Source: Deltaproteobacteria bacterium
GTDB lineage: Bacteria; Myxococcota; Myxococcia; Myxococcales; Anaeromyxobacteraceae
Assembly (NCBI GenBank): GCA_016214955.1
Contig: JACRMN010000007.1
Span: forward strand, 1-64,000
Direction of reading: 5' to 3'
DNA length: 64,000 nt
Of the stretch, positions 14,373-43,795 are shown in pieces; positions within the stretch are counted from its first letter, which is position 1; every line of letters begins with the position of its first letter. The notes below the pieces were generated by a model that saw only the letters and a list, made by a program, of their open reading frames with translations, was not told the DNA's origin and searched no databases. The position numbers and the translations under genes were made by a program.

Positions 14373-14804
14373 GACCATCTCCTCCGGCAGCGGCGCCGCC
14401 GCTCCAGAACGATCTACAGCGGCGCCCGCCTCCCGGCCAGTCCCCGGTCACCCTCGGGGGAGGGGCGAGCCCCCCACACCCCCGGAGCCGCCGAGCTCGC
14501 CGGGAAATGGCCGGGCGGGGAGCGCCACCTGCGGCGCGGCGCTCCCCGGCCCTCCGTTCCCGGCCTGGAGTCGCCCAGATCGGCCCAGCCCGCCCGCTCA
14601 CCGCGTCGCGCCCTCCAGCGCCGGGCGTCCGGACCTTCCTGGGCGCTCGACGGGAGCACACCGGCGGAGGCGGGGCTGCGCGTCCATGAGCGCGGGGCAC
14701 GGCGCGGGGGTCATCGCCTGCTGGCGCGGAGCCGGCGGGCGCGCGCCCCGCTCCCGGGAGGAGCGGGGCTGCGGCGACCGGGCCCGACCAGGGGCGAGCG
14801 GCCG
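14373..14804. other. Intergenic stretch, no gene seen
   Basis: This 432-nt stretch lies upstream of tatA and downstream of the minus-strand gene at 14805. Open frames here are compositionally biased Arg/Pro/Ala peptides with no conserved motif or plausible ribosome binding site. It contains the tatA leader (GGAGGAG at 14379-14385) and no obvious terminator or operator. Confidence 0.6.
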
Positions 14805-15449
14805 TCAGCCGGCCTTGTAGACCCCGTCGAGGCGGGTGCCCAGCATGCCCGCCTCCATGGAGCGCGGATCCACGGGCGTGAGGCCTCGCTTCATCCGCGG
14901 CGTGAGGATGGGGCGGTGGCGGAGGGCGTCGAGCCTTTCGGAGATGACCGGGAGGGGATCGTCGCGGAACATCCAGCGCTGCCTGTCGAACTGGCGCAGG
15001 TGGAGCAGGCCGGAGTAGGCGCGCAGCGTCTTCTCGCCCTCGAGGTTGAAGTAGCCCTCGAAGTAGGAGAGCACCAGCTCGCGCAGCGTGCGGTGGATGG
15101 GCTCGCGGAAGCGCAGGCCGACGAAGTTGGACTTGGCCACCGCCCCGTAGCAGCCGTTGGCGCGGAAGACCGCGAGCACGTGGTCGTCGTCGCGGTCGGC
15201 CCACATGTCGAGGAGGAGCGGCGGGTGGCCGAGCTCGCGGAGCGCCGCGGCGGCGAAGAGGGCGCCGTCGAAGCAGTGGGCGCGCCGCTCCACCATGACG
15301 TTGCGGGGACAGGCGGCCTTCTCCTCGGCGCGGTAGGCGAGGCCGTCGAGATAGGCCTGGACGCCGGCCGGGTTCCGGAGGCGGCGAAGGAGTGCGCGCT
15401 CTCCCGGGGTCCAGCCGTCGCGTCCCCGCTTCGTTCCGGTCTGGCTCAC
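14805..15449 (-). CDS. Uncharacterised protein, transglutaminase-like Cys/His arrangement
   Basis: A 214-residue protein with no signal peptide. A conserved-looking block AHCFDGALFAAAALRELG (Cys59) is followed by DRDDDHVLAVFR (His90) and GAVAKSNF. This Cys then His spacing and the surrounding hydrophobics resemble transglutaminase-like or papain-fold cysteine enzymes, but the third catalytic residue is not clear. The rest (SYFEGYFNLEGEKTLRAYS) is not recognised. The start is a GTG at 15449, 8 nt after GAGAGGAG. It stands alone, divergent from the large cytochrome, with a 452-nt gap between them. Function is unknown. Confidence 0.7.
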   Translation of the reverse strand: MSQTGTKRGRDGWTPGERALLRRLRNPAGVQAYLDGLAYRAEEKAACPRNVMVERRAHCFDGALFAAAALRELGHPPLLLDMWADRDDDHVLAVFRANGCYGAVAKSNFVGLRFREPIHRTLRELVLSYFEGYFNLEGEKTLRAYSGLLHLRQFDRQRWMFRDDPLPVISERLDALRHRPILTPRMKRGLTPVDPRSMEAGMLGTRLDGVYKAG

Positions 15450-15901
15450 GCCCCGCTCCTCTCGCGAGATGGGCGCGCAGTCTACCCTGCCGGGACGGCC
15501 CGGCGGCTGGATGCCCTGGACGGAGGCGCTTTTCGCGGCACGATCGGGCTCGGAAAGCGGGATGGCCCCCGGTGGACGAGATCACTCCGGGTAAGGGCTC
15601 CTGAGGACTCCGAGCGGGGGAGACCGTCTTGATCGAGGCGGGTCCCAGCGTACCTGTTGGGTTCACGCCGCGTCGCAGCATCCTTGTTTTCGTCCGTGAA
15701 TTCAACGTGTAGTGATGGGTAGACCGATGTCGGCACCCATCGATTCGCAATTGATCTCGCGCTCTTCGAGGCCGGGGTGGCTGTCCCGGGGTCATGGTAT
15801 GCGGCGACTTGTTCAGCCCAGGCCGTCGGGGGTAGTTTGGCGCCTCCTCATTGCGGGATTTTGGCGGGGGCGGGGTGCCCTCAATTTCACCAGGGGTGCA
15901 C
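15450..15901. other. Long divergent promoter region upstream of the giant cytochrome
   Basis: This 452-nt gap is less GC-rich than its surroundings from about 15640 on. Small open frames in it have no motifs. It should hold the promoters of the 15449 minus-strand gene and the 15902 cytochrome. The clearest structure is the imperfect palindrome at 15739-15755, listed separately. I looked for the cyclic-dinucleotide GEMM riboswitch known upstream of some Geobacter cytochromes and did not find its GGGACGCAAAGC-type core. Confidence 0.55.
15739..15755. promoter_or_regulatory. Imperfect palindrome, candidate operator for the multihaem cytochrome
   Basis: The 17-bp sequence ATCGATTCGCAATTGAT has symmetrical arms ATCnATT and AATnGAT around a 3-nt centre, in a relatively AT-rich part of the leader. 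It lies about 150 nt upstream of the cytochrome start. The spacing suits a dimeric regulator one helical turn apart. The regulator is unknown. Confidence 0.35.
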
Positions 15902-24791: not shown

Positions 24792-27881
<3,090 letters not shown>

Positions 27882-27890
27882 GCGCCCGCC

Positions 27891-29162
27891 GTGCTTCCCC
27901 ACGAGCTCACCGCCGCGGAGGCCGTACCGCTCCTGGCCCGCGGCAACCTCACCGCCGAGGCGCTGGTGCGCGCCTGCCTGGAGCGCATCGCCGCCGAGGA
28001 GCCGCGGGTCCAGGCCTGGGAGCACCTCGACGCCGGTCTGGCGCTCTCCCGGGCGCGGCAGGCCGACGCCGCCGGCCGCCCTGGCCCGCTCCACGGTCTG
28101 CCGGTGGGCGTGAAGGACGTCATCGACACCGCCGACATGCCCACCGCTCGCGGCAGCCCGCTCTTCGCCGGGCGTCGCCCGGCGGCCGACGCCGCCTGCG
28201 TGGCGGCGCTGCGGCGGGCCGGGGCGGTGGTCCTCGGCAAGACGGTGACCACCGAGCTCGCCTACTACGCCCCCGGGAAGACCCGGAACCCGCACGACCC
28301 GGCCCGCACTCCGGGCGGCTCCTCCAGCGGCTCGGCGGCGGCGGTGGCGGCCTGCATGGTGCCGGCCGCCCTCGGGACCCAGACCGCCGGCTCCACCATC
28401 CGCCCGGCCTCCTTCTGCGGCGTGGTGGGCCTGAAGCCCAGCCACGGCCTGGTCTCCCTGGAGGGCGTCTCGCCCTTCGCCCCGGTGACGCTCGACACCA
28501 TCGGCCTCTTCACCCGCAGCGCCCGCGACCTGCCGCTGCTCCTGGCGGCCCTGGGCGCCCCGATCCTGGGGGCCCAGGTTCCCGCTCGGCCGCGGATCGG
28601 CGTGGCGCGCACCGAGGCCTGGCCCCTGGCCGGCCAGGCGTCGCGCGAGGCCGTGGCGCGGGCCGCCCGGGCCCTGGCCGCCGCCGGCGCCGAGGTGGAG
28701 GATGCGCCCGACGACTGGACCGGCCTCTCCGAGGCCCAGCGCACGGTGATGGCCTTCGAGGCCGCCGCCGCCTGGGGCGAGACCGCCGCCCGCGAGGGCG
28801 CCCGCCTCTCGCCCCAGTTCCGCGAGATCGTGGCCGCCGGCGCCGCCGTGGCCCCGGCCGCCTACCGCGAGGCCCGGGCGCTGGCGGCCGCGGCGCGGGC
28901 CCGCCTCCCGGCCGTCTTCGCCCGCTTCGACGTGCTCCTCGGCGCCAGCGCGCTGGGAGAGGCGCCTCCCGGCCTGGGCGCCACCGGCGACCCGGCGATG
29001 AACCGCATCTGGACCCTGCTCGGCCTGCCCTGCCTCTCGCTGCCGGCCGGGCGCGGCCCGGCGGGGATGCCGGTGGGCGTCCAGCTCGTCGGGCCTCCGG
29101 GAGGCGACGAGCTGCTCGTGGCCGCGGGCCGCTGGGCCGAGGCGGCCCTGGCCGGCTGCTGA
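27891..29162 (+). CDS. Amidase signature family hydrolase
   Basis: A 423-residue amidase with the Ser-cisSer-Lys triad. Catalytic Lys75 is in PVGVKDVIDT. The Gly/Ser motif PGGSSSGSAAAVA (142-153) supplies the cis-Ser. QTAGSTIRPASFCG (164-177) supplies nucleophile Ser168. It hydrolyses an amide such as an aryl/alkyl amide, allophanate or a peptide amide; the substrate is not predictable. It lacks the length and partners of GatA, and no gatB/gatC is near. The start is a GTG 9 nt after the RND pump gene. It is convergent with the PlsC gene, whose stop is 4 nt away in a short palindrome. Confidence 0.88.
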   Translation: MLPHELTAAEAVPLLARGNLTAEALVRACLERIAAEEPRVQAWEHLDAGLALSRARQADAAGRPGPLHGLPVGVKDVIDTADMPTARGSPLFAGRRPAADAACVAALRRAGAVVLGKTVTTELAYYAPGKTRNPHDPARTPGGSSSGSAAAVAACMVPAALGTQTAGSTIRPASFCGVVGLKPSHGLVSLEGVSPFAPVTLDTIGLFTRSARDLPLLLAALGAPILGAQVPARPRIGVARTEAWPLAGQASREAVARAARALAAAGAEVEDAPDDWTGLSEAQRTVMAFEAAAAWGETAAREGARLSPQFREIVAAGAAVAPAAYREARALAAAARARLPAVFARFDVLLGASALGEAPPGLGATGDPAMNRIWTLLGLPCLSLPAGRGPAGMPVGVQLVGPPGGDELLVAAGRWAEAALAGC

Positions 29163-29937: not shown

Positions 29938-30093
29938 GCCGCGAGCATCGCATGGGTTTCCCTCTCCGGAGCGGTCCTGGCAACGCGGGACACCAGGCGG
30001 CAGGCACCCCTCGGGGCCTGCCGGCGCACCCGCAACAGGCCGTCGACGGCGGGCCGGACCCGTGCTCTCATGCGCCCACTTCAGGGAGACCCC

Positions 30094-31971
30094 ATGCGCG
30101 CACGCCTCCTCCTCGCCGTCCTCGCCCTCGCGTCCCTCGCCCCGCCCGCCCTCGCCCGGGAGCGGTCGGAGATCCCGGAGAAGTACACCTGGAACCTCCG
30201 GGACTTCTTCCCGTCGGACCAGGCCTGGCAGAAGGCGCGCGACGACTTCCGCGCCCGGCTCCCCGGCATGGCCGCCCACCGCGGGCACCTCGGCGACTCG
30301 GCCGAGGCGCTGCAGCGGGGGCTCGACGCCATGTTCGACCAGCAGCTGGCCCTCGAGCGGCTGGCCGTCTACGCCTTCACGCGCAGCGACGAGGACACCC
30401 GCGCCGACGCGCCGAGGGCCATGCGCCAGGAGGTGCAGCAGCTCAACACCGAGCACGGCGCCTCCGTCTCCTTCGTCCGCCCCGAGATCCTGGCCATCGG
30501 CCCCGAAAAGGTCCGCGCCTTCCAGTCGGGCCGGAAGGAGCTCGCGCCCTACCGCCAGTACCTGGACGACGTGCTGCGCTGGAAGCCGCACACGCTGGGT
30601 CCGGCGGAGGAGAAGGTGATCGCCGAGGCCTCGGCCCTGCAGGGCAGCCCCGCCTCCGTCTACGGCGTGCTCAAGGACGCCGACCTGCCCTGGCCCACCG
30701 TCAAGCTCTCCACCGGCGAGGTCCGGCTCGACGCGGCCGCCTTCACCCTGCACCGCGCCGACCGCAACCGGGAGGACCGCGCCAAGGTCTTCGAGGCCTA
30801 CTTCGGCGCCTTCAAGACCTACCAGCGGACCTTCGGCGCCACGCTCTACGGACAGCTCCGGGCCCACGTCTTCGAGAAGAACGTGCGCGGCTTCGCCTCC
30901 ACGCTCGACCTGGCGCTCTTCCGCGACGCCATCCCGGCCAGCGTCTACCGGCAGCTCGTCGCCGACGTCCGCGGGAGCCTCCCCACGCTCCACCGCTACC
31001 TCAAGCTGCGCCAGCGCATGCTGGGCCTGCCCAAGCTCTCGTACATCGACCTGTACGTGCCGCTGGTGGAGAAGGTGGACCTGACCTTCACGCCCGAGGA
31101 GGCGATGAAGATCACCCTCGAGGCCTTCGCGCCGCTCGGCAAGCCCTACACCGACGTGCTCCGCAAGGGCTACGAGAGCCGCTGGACCGACTTCCTCCCC
31201 TCCACCGGCAAGCGGCCCGGCGCCTACTCCTGGGGCGTCTGGGGCGTGCACCCCATCCAGCTCCTCAACTTCAACGGCCAGTACGACGACCTCTCCACGC
31301 TGGCGCACGAGGCCGGCCACTCGGTCCACCGCTACCTGTCCGACACCACCCAGCCCTACGCCTCGTCCGACTCCGCCATCTTCGTGGCCGAGGTCGCCTC
31401 CACGCTCAACGAGCAGCTCCTCTTCCAGCACATGATGGCGCGCACCAAGGACGACCCCACCCGGCTGGCGCTCCTCGGCGAGCTGCTCGACCGGATGCGC
31501 GGCACGCTCTTCCGCCAGGCGATGTTCGCCGAGTTCGAGCTCGCCATCCACGAGGCGGCCGAGAAGGGCGAGTCGCTCACCGGCGAGAAGCTCTCGGCCC
31601 TCTACCTGGGGCTGGCCCGCGAGTACCACGGCCACGCCCAGGGGGTGTGCCAGGTGGACGACTTCATCGGCCAGGAGTGGGCCTACATCCCCCACTTCTA
31701 CCGGGACTTCTACGTCTACCAGTACGCCACCAGCCTCACCGCCTCCATCGCCTTCGCCGAGGCCATCCAGGCCGAGGCGGCCGCCGGCAAGACCGACACC
31801 CGCGACCGCTACCTCGCCATGCTCAAGGCCGGCGGCTCCCGGTATCCGATCGAGCTCCTGCGCACCGCGGGCGTCGACCCCACCACCTCGGCGCCCTTCC
31901 AGGCCTCGATGAAGGTGATGAACCGGGTGATGGACGAGATGGAGCGCATCCTCGCGAAGCAGGGGCACTGA
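30094..31971 (+). CDS. pepF: Oligoendopeptidase F, M3 family, with signal peptide
   Basis: A 625-residue zinc peptidase. The metal site HEAGH is at residues 405-409 with downstream Glu in VAEVASTLNEQLL, as expected for M3. The N-terminal part (SEIPEKYTWNLRDFFPSDQAW) is the typical PepF opening. Unlike the usual cytoplasmic PepF, residues 1-21 look like a cleavable signal peptide (LLLAVLALASLAPPALA), so it may act in the periplasm or outside the cell on oligopeptides. ATG 30094 follows GGGAGA; an in-frame ATG at 30070 is an alternative start. Two tandem hairpins follow the stop. Confidence 0.9.
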   Translation: MRARLLLAVLALASLAPPALARERSEIPEKYTWNLRDFFPSDQAWQKARDDFRARLPGMAAHRGHLGDSAEALQRGLDAMFDQQLALERLAVYAFTRSDEDTRADAPRAMRQEVQQLNTEHGASVSFVRPEILAIGPEKVRAFQSGRKELAPYRQYLDDVLRWKPHTLGPAEEKVIAEASALQGSPASVYGVLKDADLPWPTVKLSTGEVRLDAAAFTLHRADRNREDRAKVFEAYFGAFKTYQRTFGATLYGQLRAHVFEKNVRGFASTLDLALFRDAIPASVYRQLVADVRGSLPTLHRYLKLRQRMLGLPKLSYIDLYVPLVEKVDLTFTPEEAMKITLEAFAPLGKPYTDVLRKGYESRWTDFLPSTGKRPGAYSWGVWGVHPIQLLNFNGQYDDLSTLAHEAGHSVHRYLSDTTQPYASSDSAIFVAEVASTLNEQLLFQHMMARTKDDPTRLALLGELLDRMRGTLFRQAMFAEFELAIHEAAEKGESLTGEKLSALYLGLAREYHGHAQGVCQVDDFIGQEWAYIPHFYRDFYVYQYATSLTASIAFAEAIQAEAAAGKTDTRDRYLAMLKAGGSRYPIELLRTAGVDPTTSAPFQASMKVMNRVMDEMERILAKQGH

Positions 31972-31973
31972 CC

Positions 31974-32022
31974 CGGCCCCTTCGGGGCCGTCGTCTGCGA
32001 GGCCGAGCCCGCCCCCGGGCTC
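31974..32022 (+). terminator. Tandem stem-loops after pepF
   Basis: The first hairpin starts 3 nt after the stop: CGGCCCC (31974-31980), loop TTC, GGGGCCG (31984-31990). The second is GAGCCCG (32005-32011), loop CCCC, CGGGCTC (32016-32022). Both stems are perfect at 7 bp. The first is followed by TCGTCT, a weak T-containing tail. Together they probably end pepF transcription and insulate the polysaccharide operon at 32198. Confidence 0.6.
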
Positions 32023-32197
32023 TCCGGCATCCGAGCACCGCACCACGCCCGCGGCAGACGGTCGCGGACGTCACCCTGCGTGATGGCGGCGGGCGCGCCG
32101 GCACATCCACCCACCTCGATCCCGGACCGGGCACCCCAGAAGGACGTGGCTCGGCGCCCGCTTCGGGTGTCAACAGGTCCGGGAGGCGGGGAGGACC

Positions 32198-33070
32198 ATG
32201 AGACCCACGGCACTGGTGACGGGCGTCGGCGGCCCGGCGGGAAGGGCCGGCGCCGCGTGGCTGGCGGAGCGCGGCTACCGCGTGGTGGGCACCGACATCC
32301 GCGAGGTCCCCTCGCCGGCCGCCGTGCTCCGGGTGGTGCCGCCGGCCCGCGACCCGGCCTTCGCGGAGGCGCTCCTGCGGGTCGCCGAGGAGGAGGGCGC
32401 CGGCATCGTCATCCCCACCGTCACCGAGGAGCTGCCTCTGGTGGCCCGGCTGCGCCCGGCGCTGCGGGCCCGGGGCATCGCCTGCACGGTCTCCGATCTC
32501 CCCGGCATCGACGTGGCCGGCGACAAGCTCCTCACCGCCGAGCAGCTCCGCGCCAGCGGCGTGCAGGCGCCCGACACCTTTCCCGGGGCCACCCCCCGCG
32601 CCGCCCTGCTCGTCACCCTCGGGCTCCCGCTGCTCTCCAAGCCGCGCTTCGGGCGCGGCGGGCGCGGCGTGCAGGTCCACCGGACGGAGGAGGAGGTGGT
32701 CCGCGCCGGCCCCGACGAGGTGGTCTGGCAGGCCTTCCTCCCGGGCGAGGAGTACGACGTGAACCTCTTCCTGGAGCGGGACGGGACCGCGCCCGCGGCG
32801 GTGACGCTGCGCAAGACCGGCCTGCGCGAGGGGCTGGTGGGCAACGCCATCGCGGTGGAGCGGGTGGACCGGCCCGACGTGGCGGCGCTGGGAGTTGCCG
32901 CCGGGCGTGCGCTCGGCCTCTTCGGACCGCTCGACGTGGACATCCGGATGGGAACCGACGGGGTGCCGGCCGTGCTGGAGGTGAACGCGCGGCTCGGCGC
33001 CAACGTCCTGTCGGCGCGCGAGGTGCTGGTGGCCCTCGACGACGCCTGGAGGAACGGAAGATGCGCTTGA
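32198..33070 (+). CDS. ATP-grasp ligase, first gene of the polysaccharide-like operon
   Basis: A 290-residue ATP-grasp protein. An N-terminal Rossmann-like pre-ATP-grasp segment (ALVTGVGGPAGRAGA) precedes an ATP-grasp fold: LLSKPRFGRGGRGVQVH (ATP-binding Lys and glycine-rich loop), VWQAFLPGEEYDVNLF, and the metal-binding C-terminal VLEVNARLGANVLSA. It resembles CarB-like/PylC-like ligases that join a carboxylate to an amine. The ATG of the next gene lies within its last codons (10-nt overlap), so the two are translationally coupled. A possible role is attaching an amino acid or carboxylate to an exposed hexosamine amine, which is only an inference from the operon. RBS is GGGGAGGACC. Confidence 0.75.
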   Translation: MRPTALVTGVGGPAGRAGAAWLAERGYRVVGTDIREVPSPAAVLRVVPPARDPAFAEALLRVAEEEGAGIVIPTVTEELPLVARLRPALRARGIACTVSDLPGIDVAGDKLLTAEQLRASGVQAPDTFPGATPRAALLVTLGLPLLSKPRFGRGGRGVQVHRTEEEVVRAGPDEVVWQAFLPGEEYDVNLFLERDGTAPAAVTLRKTGLREGLVGNAIAVERVDRPDVAALGVAAGRALGLFGPLDVDIRMGTDGVPAVLEVNARLGANVLSAREVLVALDDAWRNGRCA

Positions 33071-34362
33071 CCCTCGCCCTCACGCTGGCCCTGGCCCTGG
33101 CCGGCACCCTGCCGGCACCCGCCGCCGGGCAGGATGCCGCCGGCCTCTCGGCGCGCGGCGACGCCCTGCGCAGGGCCGGCGACTACGACGGCGCGGTGGA
33201 GGCGCTGCGGGCCGCCATCGCCGCCGGCGACCGCTCGGCCGAGACCTGGAAGCGCCTGGGCTGGGCCGAGAAGGCCCGCCGGCGCTACGCCGCCGCCGGG
33301 GAGGCGCTCGCGCAGGCGATCCTGGCCGACCCCCGGGACCGGGAGGCGCAGGACGACCTCGCCGACCTGCGGCGCAGCCGCGGCCTGCGGCTCTCGGGCT
33401 GGCTGGGCGGCGACGAGCCCGGCACCTCGAAGCAGGCCGTCAACGCCGAGCTCTGGTACGGCGGCCTCGACCGGCTGGAGCTCAAGGGCGGCTACGGCTA
33501 CAGCGACGCCATCTTCTACGAGTCGCAGAAGGGCTTCGCCACCGCCTACTGGTTCTACGCACCCGACTCCTACCTCCAGGCCGACCTCACCTACCGCGGG
33601 TACTCCTACCCGGCCCAGCAGAACGGCACGCCGCCCAACCCCGACACCACCTCCTACGAGCAGGCGCCGCGGGCCACGCTGGAGCTGCAGCACTGGTTCG
33701 GCCGCGGCCTGCGCACCACCCTCGCCTACCAGCTCTACGCCCCCACCTTCGCCCACGACACCTCGACGCGCATCTGGAACCACAAGCTCACCGGCGAGGT
33801 GATGGTGCCGCTCCCGGGCGGCTTCCGCGCCGGCGCGCTGCTCGGGGCCCTGCGCGACCCCGACCCGAAGAAGACCCTCATCCGGAACCGGGACATCCCC
33901 GGCCTGGGCCCGGTGGGCAGCGACGGCAACTGCGACCCCGCCACCGCCCCGGCCACCTGCGCCGCGGCCACGGCCGTGGTGTACAAGGTCGAGCCGCTCT
34001 TCGGCGGGTTCGTGGGCTTCGAGGCCTCGCGCTGGGGGCTGGAGGTCCGGGGGATCACCAACCGCGACCTCGACGCCAGCTACTCCTTCTCGCTGCTCAC
34101 CACCCTCTCGGTCCAGCCGTTCGATCGCGCCGAGGCCGTGCTCGCCTGGGTCCACGACCGCTACGCCACCATCTCGGCCTTCTCCGGCAGGAGCGGCGAC
34201 GTGCTCTGGGCCTCCGGCCGCTACTGGGTGCTGCCCTGGGTGGCGGCGGGCGGCGGCGTGAAGTGGGTCAACAACCCCAGCCCGCAGAGCCGCACCGACC
34301 CGGGCTGGCGCAACTCGGCCACGCTGCTCCTCAACCTCGAGATCCGCACCGGCCTCTTCTAG
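33061..34362 (+). CDS. Exported TPR and outer-membrane beta-barrel protein (PgaA/YaiO-like)
   Basis: A 433-residue protein with a signal peptide (residues 1-24, ending PAAGQ). Residues 28-110 hold two to three TPR-like helical pairs (LSARGDALRRAGDYDGAVEALRAA cited in part). From about residue 125 the sequence becomes alternating, aromatic-rich strands (YGGLDRLELKGGYGYSD, YLQADLTYRGYSYP) that end in a terminal Phe (RTGLF), typical of an outer-membrane barrel. This TPR-plus-barrel order recalls PgaA, which exports poly-N-acetylglucosamine. A disordered-looking Pro/Thr loop and a Cys-containing loop interrupt it. It overlaps the ATP-grasp gene and is 6 nt from the next gene. Export of the operon's glycan is the likely job. 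Confidence 0.72.
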   Translation: MRLTLALTLALALAGTLPAPAAGQDAAGLSARGDALRRAGDYDGAVEALRAAIAAGDRSAETWKRLGWAEKARRRYAAAGEALAQAILADPRDREAQDDLADLRRSRGLRLSGWLGGDEPGTSKQAVNAELWYGGLDRLELKGGYGYSDAIFYESQKGFATAYWFYAPDSYLQADLTYRGYSYPAQQNGTPPNPDTTSYEQAPRATLELQHWFGRGLRTTLAYQLYAPTFAHDTSTRIWNHKLTGEVMVPLPGGFRAGALLGALRDPDPKKTLIRNRDIPGLGPVGSDGNCDPATAPATCAAATAVVYKVEPLFGGFVGFEASRWGLEVRGITNRDLDASYSFSLLTTLSVQPFDRAEAVLAWVHDRYATISAFSGRSGDVLWASGRYWVLPWVAAGGGVKWVNNPSPQSRTDPGWRNSATLLLNLEIRTGLF

Positions 34363-34368
34363 CCGCCG

Positions 34369-36195
34369 ATGGCCCGCCCCCTCCCGCTCCTCGCCGCCGC
34401 GCTCCTGGCCGCCGCCGGCGAGGGGCGAGCGCTCGCGCCGCTGGCGCCCCTGGCCCTGGCCCAGGGCCGCAGGGCGCCCGAGGGCGAGCCAGCCGCCGGC
34501 CCGGCGATGAGGCCCACCATCGAGGGGCTGCGCCGCTACGCCGAGGCGCAGGTGCGGGCCCGCAAGCTCCCCGAGGCCATCCACGCCTACCAGCAGATCC
34601 TGCGGATGGCGCCGGGCGACGACGACGCCCTGGCCCACCTGGCGCAGCTCCAGGCCTGGAGCGGCGACCACGACCGGGCCATCGTCCTCTACCGCGACGC
34701 CATCGCCCGCCGGCCCGGCGACCTCGGGCTCCGGAGCGATCTCGCCGACGTGCTCACCTGGGCGCGGCGGCTCGAGGAGGCGGAGCGGCTCTACGAGGAG
34801 GTGCTGGCCCGCGACCCGGAGCACCACGAGGCGCTCAAGGGGCTGGCCCGGGCGCGGCTGCTGCACGGCGACGCCGCCGGGGCCGCCGGCGCGCTGGCGC
34901 GGGCCCTGGCCCTCTACCCCGACGACGCCGACCTCCACCGCGAGAGCGCCCGGCTCCACACCCAGACCGGCGAGCTCGACAGGGCGGTGGAGGAGCTGCG
35001 GGCGGCGACCCGGCTCCTGCCCGGCGAACCGTCGCTGCTGCGCCAGCTCGGCGAGGTGCTGCTGCAGAAGAAGGACTTCGCGGCCGCCGCCGGGGTCTGG
35101 ACCCAGGTGGCGCAGCTCGAGCCCGAGTCGCCGGCCGCCCAGGTGGCCCTGGCCCGGGCCTTCCTGGGCATGGGCAAGCTGGCCGCCGCCCGCGAGCACG
35201 CCGACCTGGCGCTGCGCCTCGGCCCGAGCGACGCCGCCGCGGCGCAGGTCTCGGCGGAGCTCTCCCGCGAGGCGGGCCTGGCGCCGCTTCGCACCGCGGG
35301 CGAGTGGTTCGAGGTGCTGGCCTACGTCTCGCTCCTGCCTCTGGTGCTGCTGGTGGCCCGGAAGACCCGGCGCTCGCTGCGCCGCCGGCCGGCCGCCTGG
35401 ACCTTCGCCATCTACGTGGCCCCGGCCTTCATCCTCCTCAACGTCGTCTCCCACTTCGCCCGCGGCTGGCTCGCCCGCTGGGTGGACGTCCGCATCTTCG
35501 AGGCCGCCACCGAGGTGGTGCTGTTCCTGGGCCTGGGGGCGGCCTTCCTGGCGGTGCTCCGGGCCGAGCCGCCGGTGCGCGAGTTCGCCGACCAGGTGGT
35601 GCTGGCCATCGGCGCCCACCCCGACGACGTCGAGCTGGGGTGCGCGGGCTTCCTTGCCAAGCTCAAGGCCAGCGGCGCCCAGGTCCACGCGCTCACCCTG
35701 ACCCGCGGCGAGCAGGGCACCTCGGGCGGCGACCGGGTGGGCGAGGCCCGGCGCGCCGCCGCCTTCCTGCGGCTCGACGGCCACGAGGTGCTCGACCTGC
35801 CCGACACCGGGCTCTCGGACCAGGTGCCGGCGGTGAAGGCCGCCATCGAGGCCCGGGTGAAGGCGCTCCGGCCCACCCTGGTGCTGACCCACACCGACGT
35901 GGACGTGCACGGCGACCACCGGGCGGTCCACGCCGCCACCCGCGAGGCGGCGCGAGCGGTCCCGACGCTGCTGTGCTACGAGGACGTTTCCACCACGGCG
36001 CAGTTCACCCCCAACCTCTACGTGGACATCGGGAGCTACCTCGACGACCACCTCCGGGCCTGCGCCTTCCACCAGAGCCAGGCCCACCGGAGCTACATGG
36101 ATCCGCAGGTCATCCAGGGGCGCGCCGCCCACCGGGGGATGCAGATCGGAGCCCACTTCGCCCTGGCGTTCCGGGCGGTGAGCCTGATCCGCTGA
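34369..36195 (+). CDS. TPR protein with membrane anchor and PIG-L (LmbE-like) deacetylase domain
   Basis: A 608-residue fusion. Residues 1-30 look like a signal or anchor; residues 50-310 hold about seven TPR units. Three hydrophobic segments follow (around 320-335, 350-370, 385-400), with RKTRRSLRRR between the first two, so by the positive-inside rule the TPRs are periplasmic and the C-terminus cytoplasmic. Residues 410-605 form a PIG-L domain: AHPDDVE (H417, D419, D420) and HGDH (H514-H517), the zinc site of GlcNAc N-deacetylases. It therefore probably deacetylates a hexosamine precursor or nascent chain. The next gene, the GT2 synthase, starts 3 nt later. Confidence 0.82.
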   Translation: MARPLPLLAAALLAAAGEGRALAPLAPLALAQGRRAPEGEPAAGPAMRPTIEGLRRYAEAQVRARKLPEAIHAYQQILRMAPGDDDALAHLAQLQAWSGDHDRAIVLYRDAIARRPGDLGLRSDLADVLTWARRLEEAERLYEEVLARDPEHHEALKGLARARLLHGDAAGAAGALARALALYPDDADLHRESARLHTQTGELDRAVEELRAATRLLPGEPSLLRQLGEVLLQKKDFAAAAGVWTQVAQLEPESPAAQVALARAFLGMGKLAAAREHADLALRLGPSDAAAAQVSAELSREAGLAPLRTAGEWFEVLAYVSLLPLVLLVARKTRRSLRRRPAAWTFAIYVAPAFILLNVVSHFARGWLARWVDVRIFEAATEVVLFLGLGAAFLAVLRAEPPVREFADQVVLAIGAHPDDVELGCAGFLAKLKASGAQVHALTLTRGEQGTSGGDRVGEARRAAAFLRLDGHEVLDLPDTGLSDQVPAVKAAIEARVKALRPTLVLTHTDVDVHGDHRAVHAATREAARAVPTLLCYEDVSTTAQFTPNLYVDIGSYLDDHLRACAFHQSQAHRSYMDPQVIQGRAAHRGMQIGAHFALAFRAVSLIR

Positions 36196-36198
36196 GCG

Positions 36199-38634
36199 AT
36201 GACCCTCCTCGCCGCCCTGTTCTGGGCCTTCGGCCTGACGGTCTTCGTCCTGGGACTGCAGGGGCTGCTCTACTTCCCGCTCACCGTCGCCTACGAGGTG
36301 TGGAAGCGCCGGGCGCTGGCCCGGCTCCCGCCCTTCACCGGCAGGGTCACGGTGGTGGTGCCGGCCTACAACGAGGGGCGGACCATCCGCCTGGCCCTCG
36401 AAACGCTGCTGGAGTCGGAGGGCGTGGACCTGGAGGTGGTGGTGGTGGACGACGGCTCCACCGACGGCACCGCCGACCTCGTCCAGGACCTCCACGACCA
36501 GGGGCGCATCCGGCTCCTGCGGCAGGCCAACGCCGGCAAGGCCCGCGCCCTCGACGCCGGCATCGCCGCCGCCACCGGCGAGGTGGTGCTCTACACCGAC
36601 GCCGACAGCCTCTTCTACCGGCGCACCGTGGCCCAGATGGCCCGCTGGTTCGCCGACCCGGCCATCGACGCGGTCTGCGGCAACGACGCGCCGCTGCGGG
36701 CCGGCACCGGGCTGCAGAAGCTCCTGGTCATCACCACCCACATCGGCACCGGCTACGTGCGCCGCGCCCTCTCGCTGCTGCGCTGCCTGCCCATCATCTC
36801 CGGCAACCTGGGGGCCATCCGCCGCCGGGTGCTGCAGGAGATCGGCGGCTTCCGGCCGATCTGGGGCGAGGACCTGGAGATCACCTGGCGGCTCCAGGCC
36901 CACGGCAAGCGCATCGTCTTCGACCCCGAGCCGGCGGTGCTGGCCGACTGCCCCGCCACCTTCGCCGCCCTGTGGAAGCAGCGGGTCCGGTGGGTGCGCA
37001 GCTACCTCAAGATCGCCTGGCTGCACCGCGGCCTCTTCTTCCGCCGCGCCGCCTTCCCCTTCTCCCTCTACCTGCCGGTGAACTTCGCCAACATGGCGCT
37101 GGTCCCGCTGCTGCAGACCGCGCTCTTCCTGGCGCTGCCGCTGGCGCTGACCCAGGGCTGGCTGCGGCCCGGCGGGACCTGGGAGGTGCTTGCCTGGCTG
37201 GGCCTGCCGTTCTTCGCCGCGGTGGCCGTCTACTCCATCCTGCTCGACCGGGAGCCGGGGGACCTCCGCTACCTGCCGTGGGGGCTGTGGATCCTGCCGG
37301 TCTCCTACTTCTTCAACGCCGTTGTCTTCTACTCATGGTGGAAAGAGATGCGCCGAGCCGAGGAGAAGTGGGAGAAGATCGGGCGGCTGGGGCCGGCCCC
37401 GGCCGCGCCGCGCGCCTGGGCCTTCGCCGCCGCCCTGGTGGCGGTGGCCCTGGCCGGGGCGGCCGCCACCTGGACGGTGATGGTGCGCCGCGAGCAGGAG
37501 CGGGCGCCGCCGCCGGCGCCGCAGGTGCTGGGGGCCGAGGCGGCCCGGCCCGCCTTCCAGCTCTCCCTCTCCACCCACTTCGACGCCTGGCCCGACTGGC
37601 GCGACGCCACCCGCCAGCTCCTGTCGCGGCCGGTGGTGGGGATGGTGGACATGGTGGGCGTCGGCGCCGGGCGCACCGAGTGGACCTACTTCCGCTGGGA
37701 GGGGCACGAGGACCGCTGGTCCAACCACCAGAAGGGAGAGGCCCGCGACCTGCTGCGCACCGCCACCGAGGAGCTGCGGCGGCGCGGCCACCGGGTGGCG
37801 GCCTTCATCGACCTCTACGCGCCCCAGTGGATCGCGGGCCACCCCGGCACCGCCGCCGTGCAGGTGAACGGCAAGCCGCACGCCGAGCAGGTGAGCCTGG
37901 CGGAGCTGTGCGAGGGGCGCTTCGGCGACCTGGTGCTGGAGATGGTGGAGTACCTCGCGGCCCACTACCCCGTCGACGCGGTGGACCTGACGGAGGCCTC
38001 CTACGGCGACACCTCCTATGGAGAGGCCGACCTGGACTCCTACCGCCGGGTCACCGGCAGGAAGGCCTGGCCCCGCGACTGGCGCGGCCGCGTCGACGTG
38101 AACGACCCCAGCGTCTGGGAGTGGAAGACCCGGCTCTTCACCGGCTTCGTGGCCCGCGCCGCCGAGGCCGCCCACCGCCACGGCAAGCTCCTCTACGTGG
38201 ACGTGGCCGCGAGCTGGAAGGACCTGTCGCGCGACGGCCGCGACCACGGGCAGGACTACCGCGAGCTCCTGCGCCACGCCGACCACCTGGTGGTCTGGGA
38301 CTACTGGGTGCTGGAGGGCCAGCCGCCGGAGGCCTCGAAGGCCCTGGCCGAGCGGCTGGGCGCGGTGCTGCCGCCGGGCCGCTGGACGCTGTCGCTGGGC
38401 CTGTGGGGCCCGGGGGGCCGCCCGGTCACGCCCGAGGAGCTGGCGCAGGGGCTGGCCTTCTCGCTGGCGGGCGGAGCCCGGCGCATCTGGGTGACGCCCA
38501 ACGACCAGCTCAGGCCTCCCCACTGGGAGGAGATCCTGCGCGCCTGGATCGTGCCGGTGAAGCCGCCGCGCCCGGCCCCCGCATCGGTCCCCACCCCTGC
38601 GGGCCTGCCCCCGGCCGCGCCCGAGAAGCGGTAG
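36199..38634 (+). CDS. Processive GT2 glycosyltransferase fused to a periplasmic glycosidase-like domain
   Basis: An 811-residue fusion. N-terminal TM helix (3-30); cytoplasmic GT2 domain (45-265) with DDGS (84-87), TDAD (133-136), GED (223-225) and QRVRW (261-265), the full motif set of processive synthases such as PgaC or hyaluronan synthase. Three TM helices follow (about 275-380), then a fifth (about 405-425) that puts the C-terminus in the periplasm. Residues 450-790 resemble a TIM-barrel glycosidase (STHFDAWPDW, FIDLYAPQW, DLTEASYGDTSYGE, YVDVAASWKDL), like the C-terminal PgaB hydrolase region. It would make and perhaps trim a hexosamine glycan. It sits between the PIG-L gene and yqgE. 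Confidence 0.8.
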   Translation: MTLLAALFWAFGLTVFVLGLQGLLYFPLTVAYEVWKRRALARLPPFTGRVTVVVPAYNEGRTIRLALETLLESEGVDLEVVVVDDGSTDGTADLVQDLHDQGRIRLLRQANAGKARALDAGIAAATGEVVLYTDADSLFYRRTVAQMARWFADPAIDAVCGNDAPLRAGTGLQKLLVITTHIGTGYVRRALSLLRCLPIISGNLGAIRRRVLQEIGGFRPIWGEDLEITWRLQAHGKRIVFDPEPAVLADCPATFAALWKQRVRWVRSYLKIAWLHRGLFFRRAAFPFSLYLPVNFANMALVPLLQTALFLALPLALTQGWLRPGGTWEVLAWLGLPFFAAVAVYSILLDREPGDLRYLPWGLWILPVSYFFNAVVFYSWWKEMRRAEEKWEKIGRLGPAPAAPRAWAFAAALVAVALAGAAATWTVMVRREQERAPPPAPQVLGAEAARPAFQLSLSTHFDAWPDWRDATRQLLSRPVVGMVDMVGVGAGRTEWTYFRWEGHEDRWSNHQKGEARDLLRTATEELRRRGHRVAAFIDLYAPQWIAGHPGTAAVQVNGKPHAEQVSLAELCEGRFGDLVLEMVEYLAAHYPVDAVDLTEASYGDTSYGEADLDSYRRVTGRKAWPRDWRGRVDVNDPSVWEWKTRLFTGFVARAAEAAHRHGKLLYVDVAASWKDLSRDGRDHGQDYRELLRHADHLVVWDYWVLEGQPPEASKALAERLGAVLPPGRWTLSLGLWGPGGRPVTPEELAQGLAFSLAGGARRIWVTPNDQLRPPHWEEILRAWIVPVKPPRPAPASVPTPAGLPPAAPEKR

Positions 38635-38643
38635 GCTGGGGCG

Positions 38644-39258
38644 GTGAAGAAGCCGCCGAGAGAGGACGAGGCACGGGGCGAGAGCGGGCTGGCGCCGGGG
38701 TTCCTGGTGGCCTCGCCCTCGCTGCGCGACCCCAACTTCCAGGGCTCGCTGGTGCTGATGGCGCGCCACGACGCCGAGGGCTCCCTGGGCTTCGTGGTCA
38801 ACCGCGCCGCCGAGGTGCGGTCCGGCGACGTGCTGCAGGCCGTGGATCCGCAGCTCCGGGCGGTCTCCCGGGCCATGGGACGCGACCAGGTGCCGGTGCT
38901 GGTGGGCGGCCCGGTGCAGCCGGAGCGGCTCTGGATCCTGTGGCGCCCGGGCGTGGTCCCGGCCGGCGAGGAGGACCTGCGCGTCGCCGGCGGCCTGGCG
39001 GTGGGCGGCTCCAAGGCGCTGCTCGAGGCGGTGTCCTCCAACGACGACGCCGGGCCCTACCAGCTCCTGCTGGGGTACGCCGGCTGGGGGCCGATGCAGG
39101 TCGAGAGCGAGGTCGCCGCCGGCGCCTGGATCCCGCTCGGCCTGATGGAGGACCTGGTCTTCGACGTGCCCATGGAGGAGCGCTGGGACGAGGCGGTGCG
39201 CCGGCTCGGCCTGCCCCCGGGCGGCTTCACCGTGGGGAGCGGCGGGGCGATGGCGTAG
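38644..39258 (+). CDS. yqgE: YqgE/AlgH family protein (UPF0301)
   Basis: A 204-residue protein of the YqgE/AlgH family. It has the conserved opening GFLVASPSLRDPNFQGSLVLMARHD and GSLGFVVNR, and a central VLVGGPVQPERLW. The family has been linked to alginate regulation (AlgH) and to transcription, but its biochemical role is unsettled. It starts at a GTG 9 nt after the GT2 gene and so probably belongs to the same operon. An N-terminal Lys/Glu-rich extension (1-18) precedes the usual start of the family. It is cytoplasmic by sequence. Confidence 0.9.
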   Translation: MKKPPREDEARGESGLAPGFLVASPSLRDPNFQGSLVLMARHDAEGSLGFVVNRAAEVRSGDVLQAVDPQLRAVSRAMGRDQVPVLVGGPVQPERLWILWRPGVVPAGEEDLRVAGGLAVGGSKALLEAVSSNDDAGPYQLLLGYAGWGPMQVESEVAAGAWIPLGLMEDLVFDVPMEERWDEAVRRLGLPPGGFTVGSGGAMA

Positions 39259-40870: not shown

Positions 40871-43441
40871 CTAGCGCTGCACGGCGATCACCGGCGAGGT
40901 CCAGGTCTCCCAGTGCGCCGGGTCGAACGGGTGGCCGAGCGCCTTCAGCACCGAGATCCTGGCCACGTAGTTGCCGTTGGCCAGGGTGAGGGTGCGCCTG
41001 CCCTTGGTGACCACGCCGTCCCAGGTCCAGGCGAAGAAGCCGCCGGCGGTGGAGTTGCGCGGCAGGTACTCGTCGGTGGAGGCATGCCCCAGCCACTTCG
41101 TGCCCGCCTCGTCGTAGATGTCGATCTCGAAGAGGCGCGAGTGGTGGTCGAGGTGCACCAGGAAGAAGGGCACGTCGTCGCCAACCATGGTGTAGACCCA
41201 GTCGGCCGGGCCGGTGACCTTGTAGAGGGAGCCCTGGTCGAAGCCCGCCAGCCACGGGAAGCCGTTGGCGGTCGGCGCCAGCACCTGGATCGACTGGTAG
41301 TCGCCGACGAACCCGGCGTAGGGCACGCGCAGCGGCGCGCCGCCGTCGTCGGGCGTGAGCACCACGTAGCCTCCGTAGATGGCCTTGTCGGGCTCGGTCG
41401 GCGGGGTGATGGTCACCTCGATCTCCGCCTCACCCCGGGCCGGGACCGTGACCGTGGGAGCCGGGAAGGTCACGGTGGCGTCGGAGAGGTAGAAGGTCGG
41501 GGTGAAGGTGCTGGCCGCGCTGACCGTGTTCTCGTAGGAGAGCGCATAGGTCACCGCCTTGCGGCTGCGGTTCTCGATCTCCAGCTCGCGGGTGACCGGG
41601 CCCGACTGGCTCTCGCCCAGGGCCAGCTTGGCCGGCGTGATGCGCACGCTGGAGAGCACGGCCTGATCGATCTGCACCATGCCGGCGCCCTGCCGGCCGA
41701 CCATGTCGAGATGGCCGGCTCCGGGGTTGCCCCACCAGGGCTTCGGGTCGGCGCTGTTCTGGAGGATGCCCCGGACCTCGCGGGCCGGGGTGTGGGGCCG
41801 GGCCTCGAGCAGCAGGGCCACGGCGCCGGCCACGTGCGGGGAGGCCATCGAGGTGCCGGAGAGCGTGGCGTGGCCGCCCTGCTCCAGCGGGTAGGTGCTG
41901 TAGATGCTGCCGCCGGGCGCGCCCAGGTCGGGCTTCAGGTCGAGGTCCGGCGAGAGGCCGTAGGAGCTGAAGCTGGAGATGAGGCCGCCGGTGGCGCTGG
42001 GGAAGCTCCCCTGGCTGGCGGTCCAGGTGATCTCGGTGGCCCCGGCGGCGATGCGGGCTCCGATCGCGCGGCCATCCGCCTGCGTGATGGCCACGAAGGG
42101 GATGGTGATCGGGACGGCTCCGACAACCGTCGGGCTGACGCGGCCGGTCCGGTCGTTGTAGAGGACCACCGCGGCCGCGCCGGCGGCCTGGGCATTGGCC
42201 GCCTTGACGTGGAAGGTGCAGCCGCCTCGCACGATGAGGGCCACCTGGCCGGAGAGGCTCCCGGCCGGGAGGGCCGCGCAGGCCGTGCCGGCAGCGGCCA
42301 GTGGCGCCGAGCCCGAGGTGGGGGCCGGCGGCGCGCCGGTCGCCGCGCCGTAGCCGACCGCGAGGCCGTCGGGCGAGACGGTGAAGTACGGCAGGTAGTC
42401 GTGGGTGTTGTCGAAGGAGGCCACGCCGATGACGTCCTTGCCCAGGCCCGGGGAGCCGGCCGAGTACAGGCCGCTGGCGCCGCTGTTGCCGATGGAGGCC
42501 ACCACCACCACGCCCTTCCTCACCAGCCGGTTGGCGGCCACGGCGGTCGGGTACTGGGGCCAGGTGAAGGCCGAGCCGATGCTCATGTTGACCACGTCCA
42601 TGCCGTCTTCCAGCGCCTTCTCCATGGCGGCGATCATCACGTCGGCGGTGGTCGAGCCCCCGCAGCCGAACACGCGGTAGGCGCCGATCTTCACCCGCGG
42701 AGCGACGCCGGTGACCAGGCCGTTGGCGCCGATGATGCCGGCGACGTGGGTGCCGTGGCCGGCGCAGTCGTCGGGGAGGGCGTCGGGGGTGGTGGTCAGG
42801 TTGAAGGTGGGCGAGGTGTCGTCGGCGTTGAAGTCGTCGCCCACGAAGTCCCAGCCGGTCACCACGCGGGCGTTGGGGAAGTCGGTGCTGTTCTGGGCCG
42901 GGACGCCGCTGCCGCCCAGGTCGGCGTTGTCGTAGTCCACGCCGGTGTCGATGACGCCCACCTTCACGCCGCGGCCGGTGAGGCCGAGCTGGGAGTGGGC
43001 CACGTCGGCGCCGGTCATGGCCAGGGCCGTGAAGAGCTCGGGGCTCGGGGCGGCGGTGGCCTGCGGGGCCGGGATGGAGATCACGGGGGTGAGCGACTTC
43101 ACGCCGGTCATCCGGCGCAGCTTGCCCAGCTCGGAGGGCTTCACCCTCACCGAGAAGCCGTTGAACAGGGTGCGGAAGGCGTGCCGCTCGGCGTAGCTCA
43201 CGCCGCCGCGGGCCGCCTCGGCGCGGAAGCCTGCCTGCTCGGCGGCCACCGCTGCGGCGCTGCCGCCCTCGGCCTCGGGCGCGCCCGCCAGCTCCACGAA
43301 CCAGAGCCGCGGGGTCTCGTCCACCATCGCTCCCGGCGCGGAGGCGGGCACCGCCGTGAGCGGCTGCAGCTCGGCCACCGCGGCCTGGGCCACCGTGGCC
43401 GAAAGCGCCGCGGCGAGTACTGCGAGGAGCTTCTTCGTCAT
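40871..43441 (-). CDS. Secreted subtilisin-like serine protease (S8) with PA domain
   Basis: An 856-residue exported protease. Residues 1-24 form a signal peptide (LLAVLAAALSATVAQA). An inhibitor-I9-like prodomain (about 45-120) follows. The S8 catalytic residues are Asp165 (VIDTGVD), His229 (GHGTHVAG) and Ser531 (GTSMASPHVAG). A PA (protease-associated) insertion lies around residues 370-450 (GQVALIVRGGCTFHVKAANA). The C-terminal 260 residues form Ig/Fn3-like beta domains, as in lactocepin/C5a peptidase relatives. It would degrade extracellular protein, as expected for a myxobacterial predator or scavenger. ATG 43441 follows GGGAGG. A strong hairpin lies in its 5' leader and another after the stop. 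Confidence 0.92.
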   Translation of the reverse strand: MTKKLLAVLAAALSATVAQAAVAELQPLTAVPASAPGAMVDETPRLWFVELAGAPEAEGGSAAAVAAEQAGFRAEAARGGVSYAERHAFRTLFNGFSVRVKPSELGKLRRMTGVKSLTPVISIPAPQATAAPSPELFTALAMTGADVAHSQLGLTGRGVKVGVIDTGVDYDNADLGGSGVPAQNSTDFPNARVVTGWDFVGDDFNADDTSPTFNLTTTPDALPDDCAGHGTHVAGIIGANGLVTGVAPRVKIGAYRVFGCGGSTTADVMIAAMEKALEDGMDVVNMSIGSAFTWPQYPTAVAANRLVRKGVVVVASIGNSGASGLYSAGSPGLGKDVIGVASFDNTHDYLPYFTVSPDGLAVGYGAATGAPPAPTSGSAPLAAAGTACAALPAGSLSGQVALIVRGGCTFHVKAANAQAAGAAAVVLYNDRTGRVSPTVVGAVPITIPFVAITQADGRAIGARIAAGATEITWTASQGSFPSATGGLISSFSSYGLSPDLDLKPDLGAPGGSIYSTYPLEQGGHATLSGTSMASPHVAGAVALLLEARPHTPAREVRGILQNSADPKPWWGNPGAGHLDMVGRQGAGMVQIDQAVLSSVRITPAKLALGESQSGPVTRELEIENRSRKAVTYALSYENTVSAASTFTPTFYLSDATVTFPAPTVTVPARGEAEIEVTITPPTEPDKAIYGGYVVLTPDDGGAPLRVPYAGFVGDYQSIQVLAPTANGFPWLAGFDQGSLYKVTGPADWVYTMVGDDVPFFLVHLDHHSRLFEIDIYDEAGTKWLGHASTDEYLPRNSTAGGFFAWTWDGVVTKGRRTLTLANGNYVARISVLKALGHPFDPAHWETWTSPVIAVQR

Positions 43442-43795
43442 ATGGGACCTCCCTGGTCGATCCGGATGTTGCGGTGCGAGCCGTCTCGCGCCCTGCGCGC
43501 GCCGGCTGCGCGCGCGCCGGCGCCGAGCTTCCGGCTCGGCGCAGTCGCGCTGGAACCCCCCTCGGTGCGATGCTGAAGGTGTGAGAATGCCCCAGGTGGA
43601 CTCCGCCATCGCACATCCCGTGAGGGGTGGCCCCGGAAGGCCCGGCCGCCGCGGATCGCCGAAGACCCACCTCTCGCGAGACGCTGGATTTCCTCCCGAT
43701 TCCCGATGTCGAATCCTGCGTCAACCTGCCGCGTCACCGGCCATCCTGTCCCCAGATCACGGCTCACGACGCGCGCCCGCGTCCATTCACCACGC
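43442..43795. other. Divergent intergenic region between subtilase and rsmE
   Basis: A 354-nt gap holding the promoters of both divergent genes. Small frames here show no motifs. It contains the tandem GCGCGCGCCGGC direct repeat near 43495-43520 and the 9-bp hairpin at 43520-43542, which lies in the transcribed leader of the protease if the promoter is further out. No recognised regulator site was found. Confidence 0.5.
43520..43542. promoter_or_regulatory. Perfect 9-bp inverted repeat in subtilase leader
   Basis: GCGCCGAGC (43520-43528) pairs perfectly with GCTCGGCGC (43534-43542) across TTCCG. It lies 80-100 nt upstream of the protease ATG at 43441. It could be a leader hairpin affecting mRNA stability or an operator for a dimeric regulator. 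There is no T tract, so a terminator is unlikely. Confidence 0.4.

Follow-up and report, generated by a model that had tools for sequence, protein, structure and literature searches.

The window, by which we mean the whole 64,000-nucleotide stretch of DNA analyzed here, belongs to a genome of 30 contigs and 5.3 Mb from a myxobacterial family; among named relatives, a congeneric Myxococcales MAG is closest, with 73–74% identity in the synthase. Open reading frames and Pfam domains define five genes at positions 32198–39258, all on the forward strand, with junctions of -10, +6, +3, and +9 nt in that order (Table 1). The tight packing and the domain calls of an earlier, sequence-only reading were confirmed, as Pfam assigns ATP-grasp_3, TPR, TPR with PIG-L, GT2, and DUF179 to the five products. 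The barrel gene starts at the ATG at 33061, thus overlapping the ligase gene by 10 nt. On the upstream side, 226 nt separate the ligase gene from the end, at 31971, of a gene for an M3 peptidase; a 749-aa open reading frame at 29952–32201 was discarded as an out-of-frame artefact overlying the peptidase gene. A SpoU methylase gene on the opposite strand lies downstream. Elsewhere in the window, we noticed an AcrB-type RND pump gene followed 9 nt on by an amidase-family gene (24792–29162) and, on the reverse strand, a gene encoding a large S8-family subtilase that contains PA and Fn3-like domains (40871–43609).

Table 1. Features of the cassette in the window and its counterparts elsewhere. Coordinates without a locus label refer to the window.
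Feature	Location	Strand	Evidence or content
ATP-grasp ligase gene	32198–33070	+	Pfam ATP-grasp_3, 4.5e-14
TPR/barrel gene	33061–34362	+	signal peptide, TPR matches, AF2 barrel model
TPR-3TM-PIG-L gene	34369–36195	+	Pfam PIG-L, 1.8e-26; TPR
PIG-L catalytic domain (predicted cytoplasmic)	35602–35949	+	genome profile match, 1.6e-27; topology
GT2-TM-glycosidase fusion gene	36199–38634	+	Pfam GT2, 1.6e-29
Glycosidase-like domain	37570–38580	+	AF2 model, Foldseek
YqgE/AlgH (DUF179) gene	38644–39258	+	Pfam, 1e-37
Cassette, window's genus	L003/L024		all four genes, same order
Cassette, window's genus	L023		all four genes, same order
Cassette, another genus of the same family	L021, L022		all four genes, same order
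Cassette, Nitrosomonadales MAG	L006		all four genes, same order
Cassette, genome sampled within the phylum to which an Acidobacteria MAG belongs	L039		all four genes, same order
Arthrobacter four-gene version	L037 (NZ_AP024649.1 810000–828000), 6627–10889		1-Mb plasmid, unannotated

Conserved synteny had been set beforehand as a test of the operon, and the first four genes proved to be collinear across phyla. Six loci keep the complete order and strand. They belong to Myxococcota, to a Nitrosomonadales MAG, and to one genome of an Acidobacteria-centred set, so that identical order is found in Myxococcota, Acidobacteriota, and Pseudomonadota, the named genomes being mostly MAGs; at three further loci (L004, L005, and L025) the cassette is partial and runs to the contig ends. 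Recurrence of this arrangement in other phyla, strand included, shows that the clustering is more than chance. Identity to the window proteins also drops roughly in parallel for all four proteins, as one would expect of genes that move as a unit. Few genomes have the cassette, which occurs in 6 of 145 genomes of the order and in 2/396 and 1/398 genomes of two other phylum sets, where the counts include the locus serving as the centre of each set. The glycosidase domain, sought in 193 and 398 genomes, was confined to those already having a fused-synthase match, and a search of viral contigs for encoded relatives found none. The flanks vary among the sites checked outside the genus, with PAP2, TauE, an Mla-type transporter, and Fe-S oxidoreductases as neighbors; the PAP2 phosphatase gene lies immediately upstream of the L021 cassette on the same strand (14688–15677, reverse) and was not seen beside other copies. 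The fifth gene had been counted as a member of the system, which the comparison contradicts: YqgE adjoins the cassette only in the window's genus, and it is situated apart both in a genome without the cassette (G036) and in one carrying the cassette on a different contig (G120). We therefore regard YqgE as a local neighbor.

The fusion protein of 811 residues consists of the GT2 domain, a transmembrane (TM) segment at residues 411–429, and then a glycosidase-like TIM barrel predicted to be extracytoplasmic. The GT2 domain contains VDDGS (83–87), DAD (134–136), GED (223–225), and QRVRW (261–265), and the aspartate, DxD, GED, and QxxRW motifs are present in every cassette homologue, including that of Arthrobacter. 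Together with the TM helices, these motifs identify a processive GT2 enzyme, in agreement with the earlier proposal of a PgaC-like synthase. PgaC_IcaA (TIGR03937) is indeed its best NCBIfam model, but the match of 138–140 bits (3.4e-40) falls far below the curated cut-off of 422, and no protein in the genome exceeds the PgaC family cut-off. PNAG (poly-beta-1,6-N-acetylglucosamine) therefore cannot be assumed, and we rejected it as the default product. Judging from the sequence, the polymer may be one of an aminosugar.

The C-terminal third of the fusion protein has no significant match in Pfam, where GHL10 and GHL6 stay below the cut-off (the best GHL10 match among homologues being 1e-4), and a search of PDB entries by sequence alone returned nothing significant. 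A confident AF2 model of the domain computed with four homologues (pLDDT 85.9, pTM 0.88) shows alternating strands and helices. Foldseek against the whole PDB identified the C-terminal domain of E. coli PgaB (GH153) as the top match (E-value 6.6e-10, TM-score 0.67), and PgaB structures account for seven of the best nine matches. The hhalign alignment with E. coli PgaB is colinear over 245 columns, which is not significant alone. The model fits the proposed fusion of a hydrolase domain to the synthase, and the likeness to the PgaB C-terminal domain is one of structure only. E599 (domain residue 142), invariant in all homologues covering the position, aligns with D466 of E. coli PgaB and is a candidate catalytic residue. 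In Bordetella PgaB, D474 of the H473-D474 pair is the probable catalytic residue (PMC5933820); since D466 follows His465, it probably equals this pair when the numbering is transferred. The catalytic His-Asp pair of PgaB is replaced by Thr-Glu in the cassette domain, and the substrate or mechanism may therefore differ. Hydropathy of the GT2 C-terminal segments is ambiguous; we placed the glycosidase outside because it has its own TM anchor and takes a lipoprotein form in Arthrobacter.

The TPR/barrel protein has 433 residues with an N-terminal signal and a C-terminal Phe. Its AF2 model, of moderate confidence (pLDDT 70.5, pTM 0.60), comprises TPR-type helices followed by 16 strands, the strand number of the PgaA and BcsC barrels. 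Foldseek placed PelBC, BcsC, DcaP, and PgaA among the best five PDB matches with TM-scores of 0.3–0.45; PgaA (4y25) ranked fifth at 0.33–0.45, followed by general porins at comparably low TM-scores. From this model, the protein is predicted to be an exopolysaccharide export porin, and the operon would combine a TPR protein with an outer-membrane barrel, the latter by prediction, as synthase-dependent exopolysaccharide systems do. A relationship to YaiO was considered and rejected (hhalign probability 0.4% over 36 columns, with a two-sequence YaiO alignment), and the YaiO model gave no match in a Pfam search of the barrel.

The PIG-L protein has a signal peptide, a periplasmic TPR domain (about residues 50–300), three TM segments (312–330, 342–360, and 379–397), and the PIG-L domain (412–608). 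AHPDD (416–420) and HGDH (514–517) form the AHPDD...HxDH metal site of PIG-L/CE14 deacetylases, and the motif is found in all homologues. TM topology was called from hydropathy and charge. A K/R-rich loop with 5–8 K/R within 15 residues follows the first TM segment in 6/6 Gram-negative homologues scanned (the window's own, L003, L004, L005, L006, and L039), and two further TM segments lie between this loop and the PIG-L domain. All three TM segments are also found in the Arthrobacter protein, although its charge signal is weaker. Because the TPR domain is exported and the loop after the first TM segment is rich in K/R, the PIG-L domain is predicted, from the charge pattern and the homologues, to reside in the cytoplasm alongside the ATP-grasp ligase. 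This location does not match PgaB-style periplasmic deacetylation; in the PNAG and Pel systems the deacetylase acts outside the cytoplasm. The idea that PIG-L had simply taken the place of the periplasmic PgaB deacetylase found no support, as the charge topology points to a cytoplasmic location. A divergent PNAG system with PIG-L in place of CE4, deacetylation of the polymer in the periplasm, and ATP-grasp as an accessory, which comes close to the sequence-only reading, would account for the PgaC-like GT2, the PgaB-C-like hydrolase, and the PgaA/BcsC-like porin. However, the cytoplasmic topology of PIG-L in all Gram-negative homologues scanned, the distance of GT2 from the PgaC cut-off, and the ATP-grasp gene at every locus with a contig covering its position make such a system quite improbable. 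Another PIG-L gene in the genome (G000:C23:82662-83006) is 28% identical and is not linked to the cassette.

The best family matches of the PIG-L domain are BshB1 and MshB-type small-glycoside deacetylases, and GT2 has a weak match to HpnI. Both are compatible with a glycolipid or small glycoside as the product (GPI, hopanoid-glucosamine, or thiol-like), in which GT2 would add HexNAc to a lipid, PIG-L would deacetylate it, and ATP-grasp would acylate it. We find this very doubtful, because GT2 has the processive QxxRW motif and the cassette includes a PgaB-like external hydrolase as well as a TPR-barrel porin of the exopolysaccharide type.

The ATP-grasp ligase (290 residues) has no signal peptide and is predicted to be cytosolic; E. 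coli YaiS likewise lacks a signal peptide. The ligase motifs DK (109–110), KPRxxRGGRG (148–157), QxFLPGEE (178–185), and LEVNARLGAN (260–269) are intact in 8/8 homologues, including Arthrobacter, and the signature residues of ATP-grasp carboxylate-amine ligases are in place, namely the conserved Lys, the Gly-rich loop, and the metal ligands of the E-x-N motif. The family match is to PRK12767, which is carbamoyl-phosphate-synthase-like, and the nearest PDB entry is 2pn1. The constancy of the gene across the loci makes the ligase part of the system. With the deacetylase and the ligase both predicted in the cytoplasm, the arrangement fits a deacetylate-then-acylate order as in mycothiol and bacillithiol synthesis (MshB-MshC and BshB-BshC), where a PIG-L deacetylase frees the glucosamine amine and a separate cytosolic ligase acylates it. 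Unlike the cassette, those pathways produce small thiols with a different glycosyltransferase and without export, and neither MshC nor BshC is known to be an ATP-grasp enzyme.

Plasmid NZ_AP024649 of Arthrobacter sp. StoSoilB13, the sole plasmid with the glycosidase domain among the 72,556 searched, carries consecutive genes for a 3TM-PIG-L protein, an ATP-grasp ligase, a GT2 synthase, and, as a protein of its own, the glycosidase-like part, which bears a lipoprotein-type signal. Identity to the window's counterparts is 40% for the ligase, 41% for the synthase, and 31% for the glycosidase-like protein. The cluster contains neither the TPR nor the barrel protein, as expected in a cell without an outer membrane. 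The enzymatic core of PIG-L, ATP-grasp, GT2, and glycosidase is therefore separable from the outer-membrane export parts, and the ligase, being kept, belongs to this core. The Arthrobacter version thus tells the polymer-making genes from the export-only genes and offers an isolate for testing. A sigma-factor-like gene (L037 4949–6463) precedes the cluster. The retention of the PIG-L/ATP-grasp pair in a Gram-positive, the ligase without a signal peptide, and the predicted cytosolic PIG-L would also suit remodelling of a soluble donor, a special case of the reading we favor, in which cytosolic PIG-L and ATP-grasp convert, for example, UDP-HexNAc via UDP-HexN into an N-acyl form polymerised by GT2. 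This special case seems unlikely to us, as PIG-L has a membrane anchor, retained even in Arthrobacter, that a soluble donor would not require; the anchor makes a nascent chain or a lipid-linked substrate more plausible than a soluble nucleotide sugar.

Building on the gene content, gene order, conservation, predicted folds, and catalytic motifs observed here, we propose that the cassette produces a synthase-dependent exopolysaccharide from an N-acetylhexosamine, the amines being deacetylated and re-acylated cytoplasmically, with PgaB-like trimming and TPR/barrel export, and that the four genes form a self-contained, horizontally spread unit. We give these two statements, taken jointly, about an even chance. 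The GT2 synthase would polymerise a sugar, which we infer to be an N-acetylhexosamine, at the inner membrane and extrude the chain. On the cytoplasmic side, the membrane-anchored PIG-L domain might strip the N-acetyl group, acting either on the donor sugar or on the chain as it grows, and the ATP-grasp ligase might put a different acyl or aminoacyl group on the freed amine, its presumed substrate. Outside, the PgaB-like glycosidase domain would trim or process the chain, which might be steered across the outer membrane by the TPR arm that the PIG-L protein extends into the periplasm, together with the TPR-barrel protein. More tentatively, and with some doubt on our part, the cassette might represent a new class of secreted polysaccharides, in which a PIG-L/ATP-grasp pair deacetylates hexosamines within the cell and re-acylates or possibly aminoacylates them before export, encoded by a mobile cassette common to Gram-negatives and actinobacteria. 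If deacetylation has indeed moved inside and been joined by an amide ligase while the plan of synthase, hydrolase, and porin is kept, the secreted polymer would bear N-substituents not described for PNAG-type polymers.

Among known systems, we class the cassette with those making synthase-dependent exopolysaccharides, as a variant of these rather than as a PNAG system. It shares with pgaABCD of E. coli a GT2 synthase and a deacetylase and, as judged from the models, may also share a TPR and barrel exporter and a hydrolase of the GH153 fold. The Pga-like logic that the sequence-only reading had seen in the operon largely survives for GT2, the hydrolase, and the barrel, for which PelB, BcsC, and PgaA are among the top five matches, but not for a periplasmic PIG-L or for YqgE. 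PIG-L, predicted to be cytoplasmic, stands where pga has a CE4 deacetylase, and Pfam found no CE4 domain (PgaB-N/IcaB) in the five proteins. The hydrolase is joined to the synthase in the cassette, whereas it is joined to the deacetylase in pga. The cassette also adds ATP-grasp and lacks a separate PgaD gene. The Pel and cellulose systems (PelBC and BcsC) resemble it in the TPR and barrel exporter and in the structural matches; however, their synthase and modification enzymes differ, and in the cassette the TPR attached to the barrel is short while that of the PIG-L protein is long. A survey of synthase-dependent exopolysaccharide operons makes no reference to PIG-L in its main text, and the PgaB glycosidase domain is reported there from Gram-negative clades only (PMC7112194). 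Our search of the open-access literature found no description of a PIG-L and ATP-grasp exopolysaccharide cluster, although this does not prove that none exists.

A partial precedent is the yaiS-yaiP-yaiX-yaiO cluster of E. coli, for which we found no characterisation in the literature, as far as searched. It unites a PIG-L protein (YaiS, 35% identical to that of the cassette), a GT2 (YaiP, 31%), and a barrel in one cluster. Unlike the cassette, it has no ATP-grasp ligase, glycosidase, or TPR arm; YaiO shows no relationship to the cassette barrel, the broken acyltransferase YaiX stands where the cassette has the ligase, and a scan of YaiP found neither the GED nor the QxxRW pattern. The cluster lies at 380069–384616 in E. 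coli K-12 (L035), where IS2 interrupts yaiX. On an Enterobacter mori plasmid (L034), genes for a PIG-L deacetylase, an acetyltransferase, and a YaiO barrel are located near each other.
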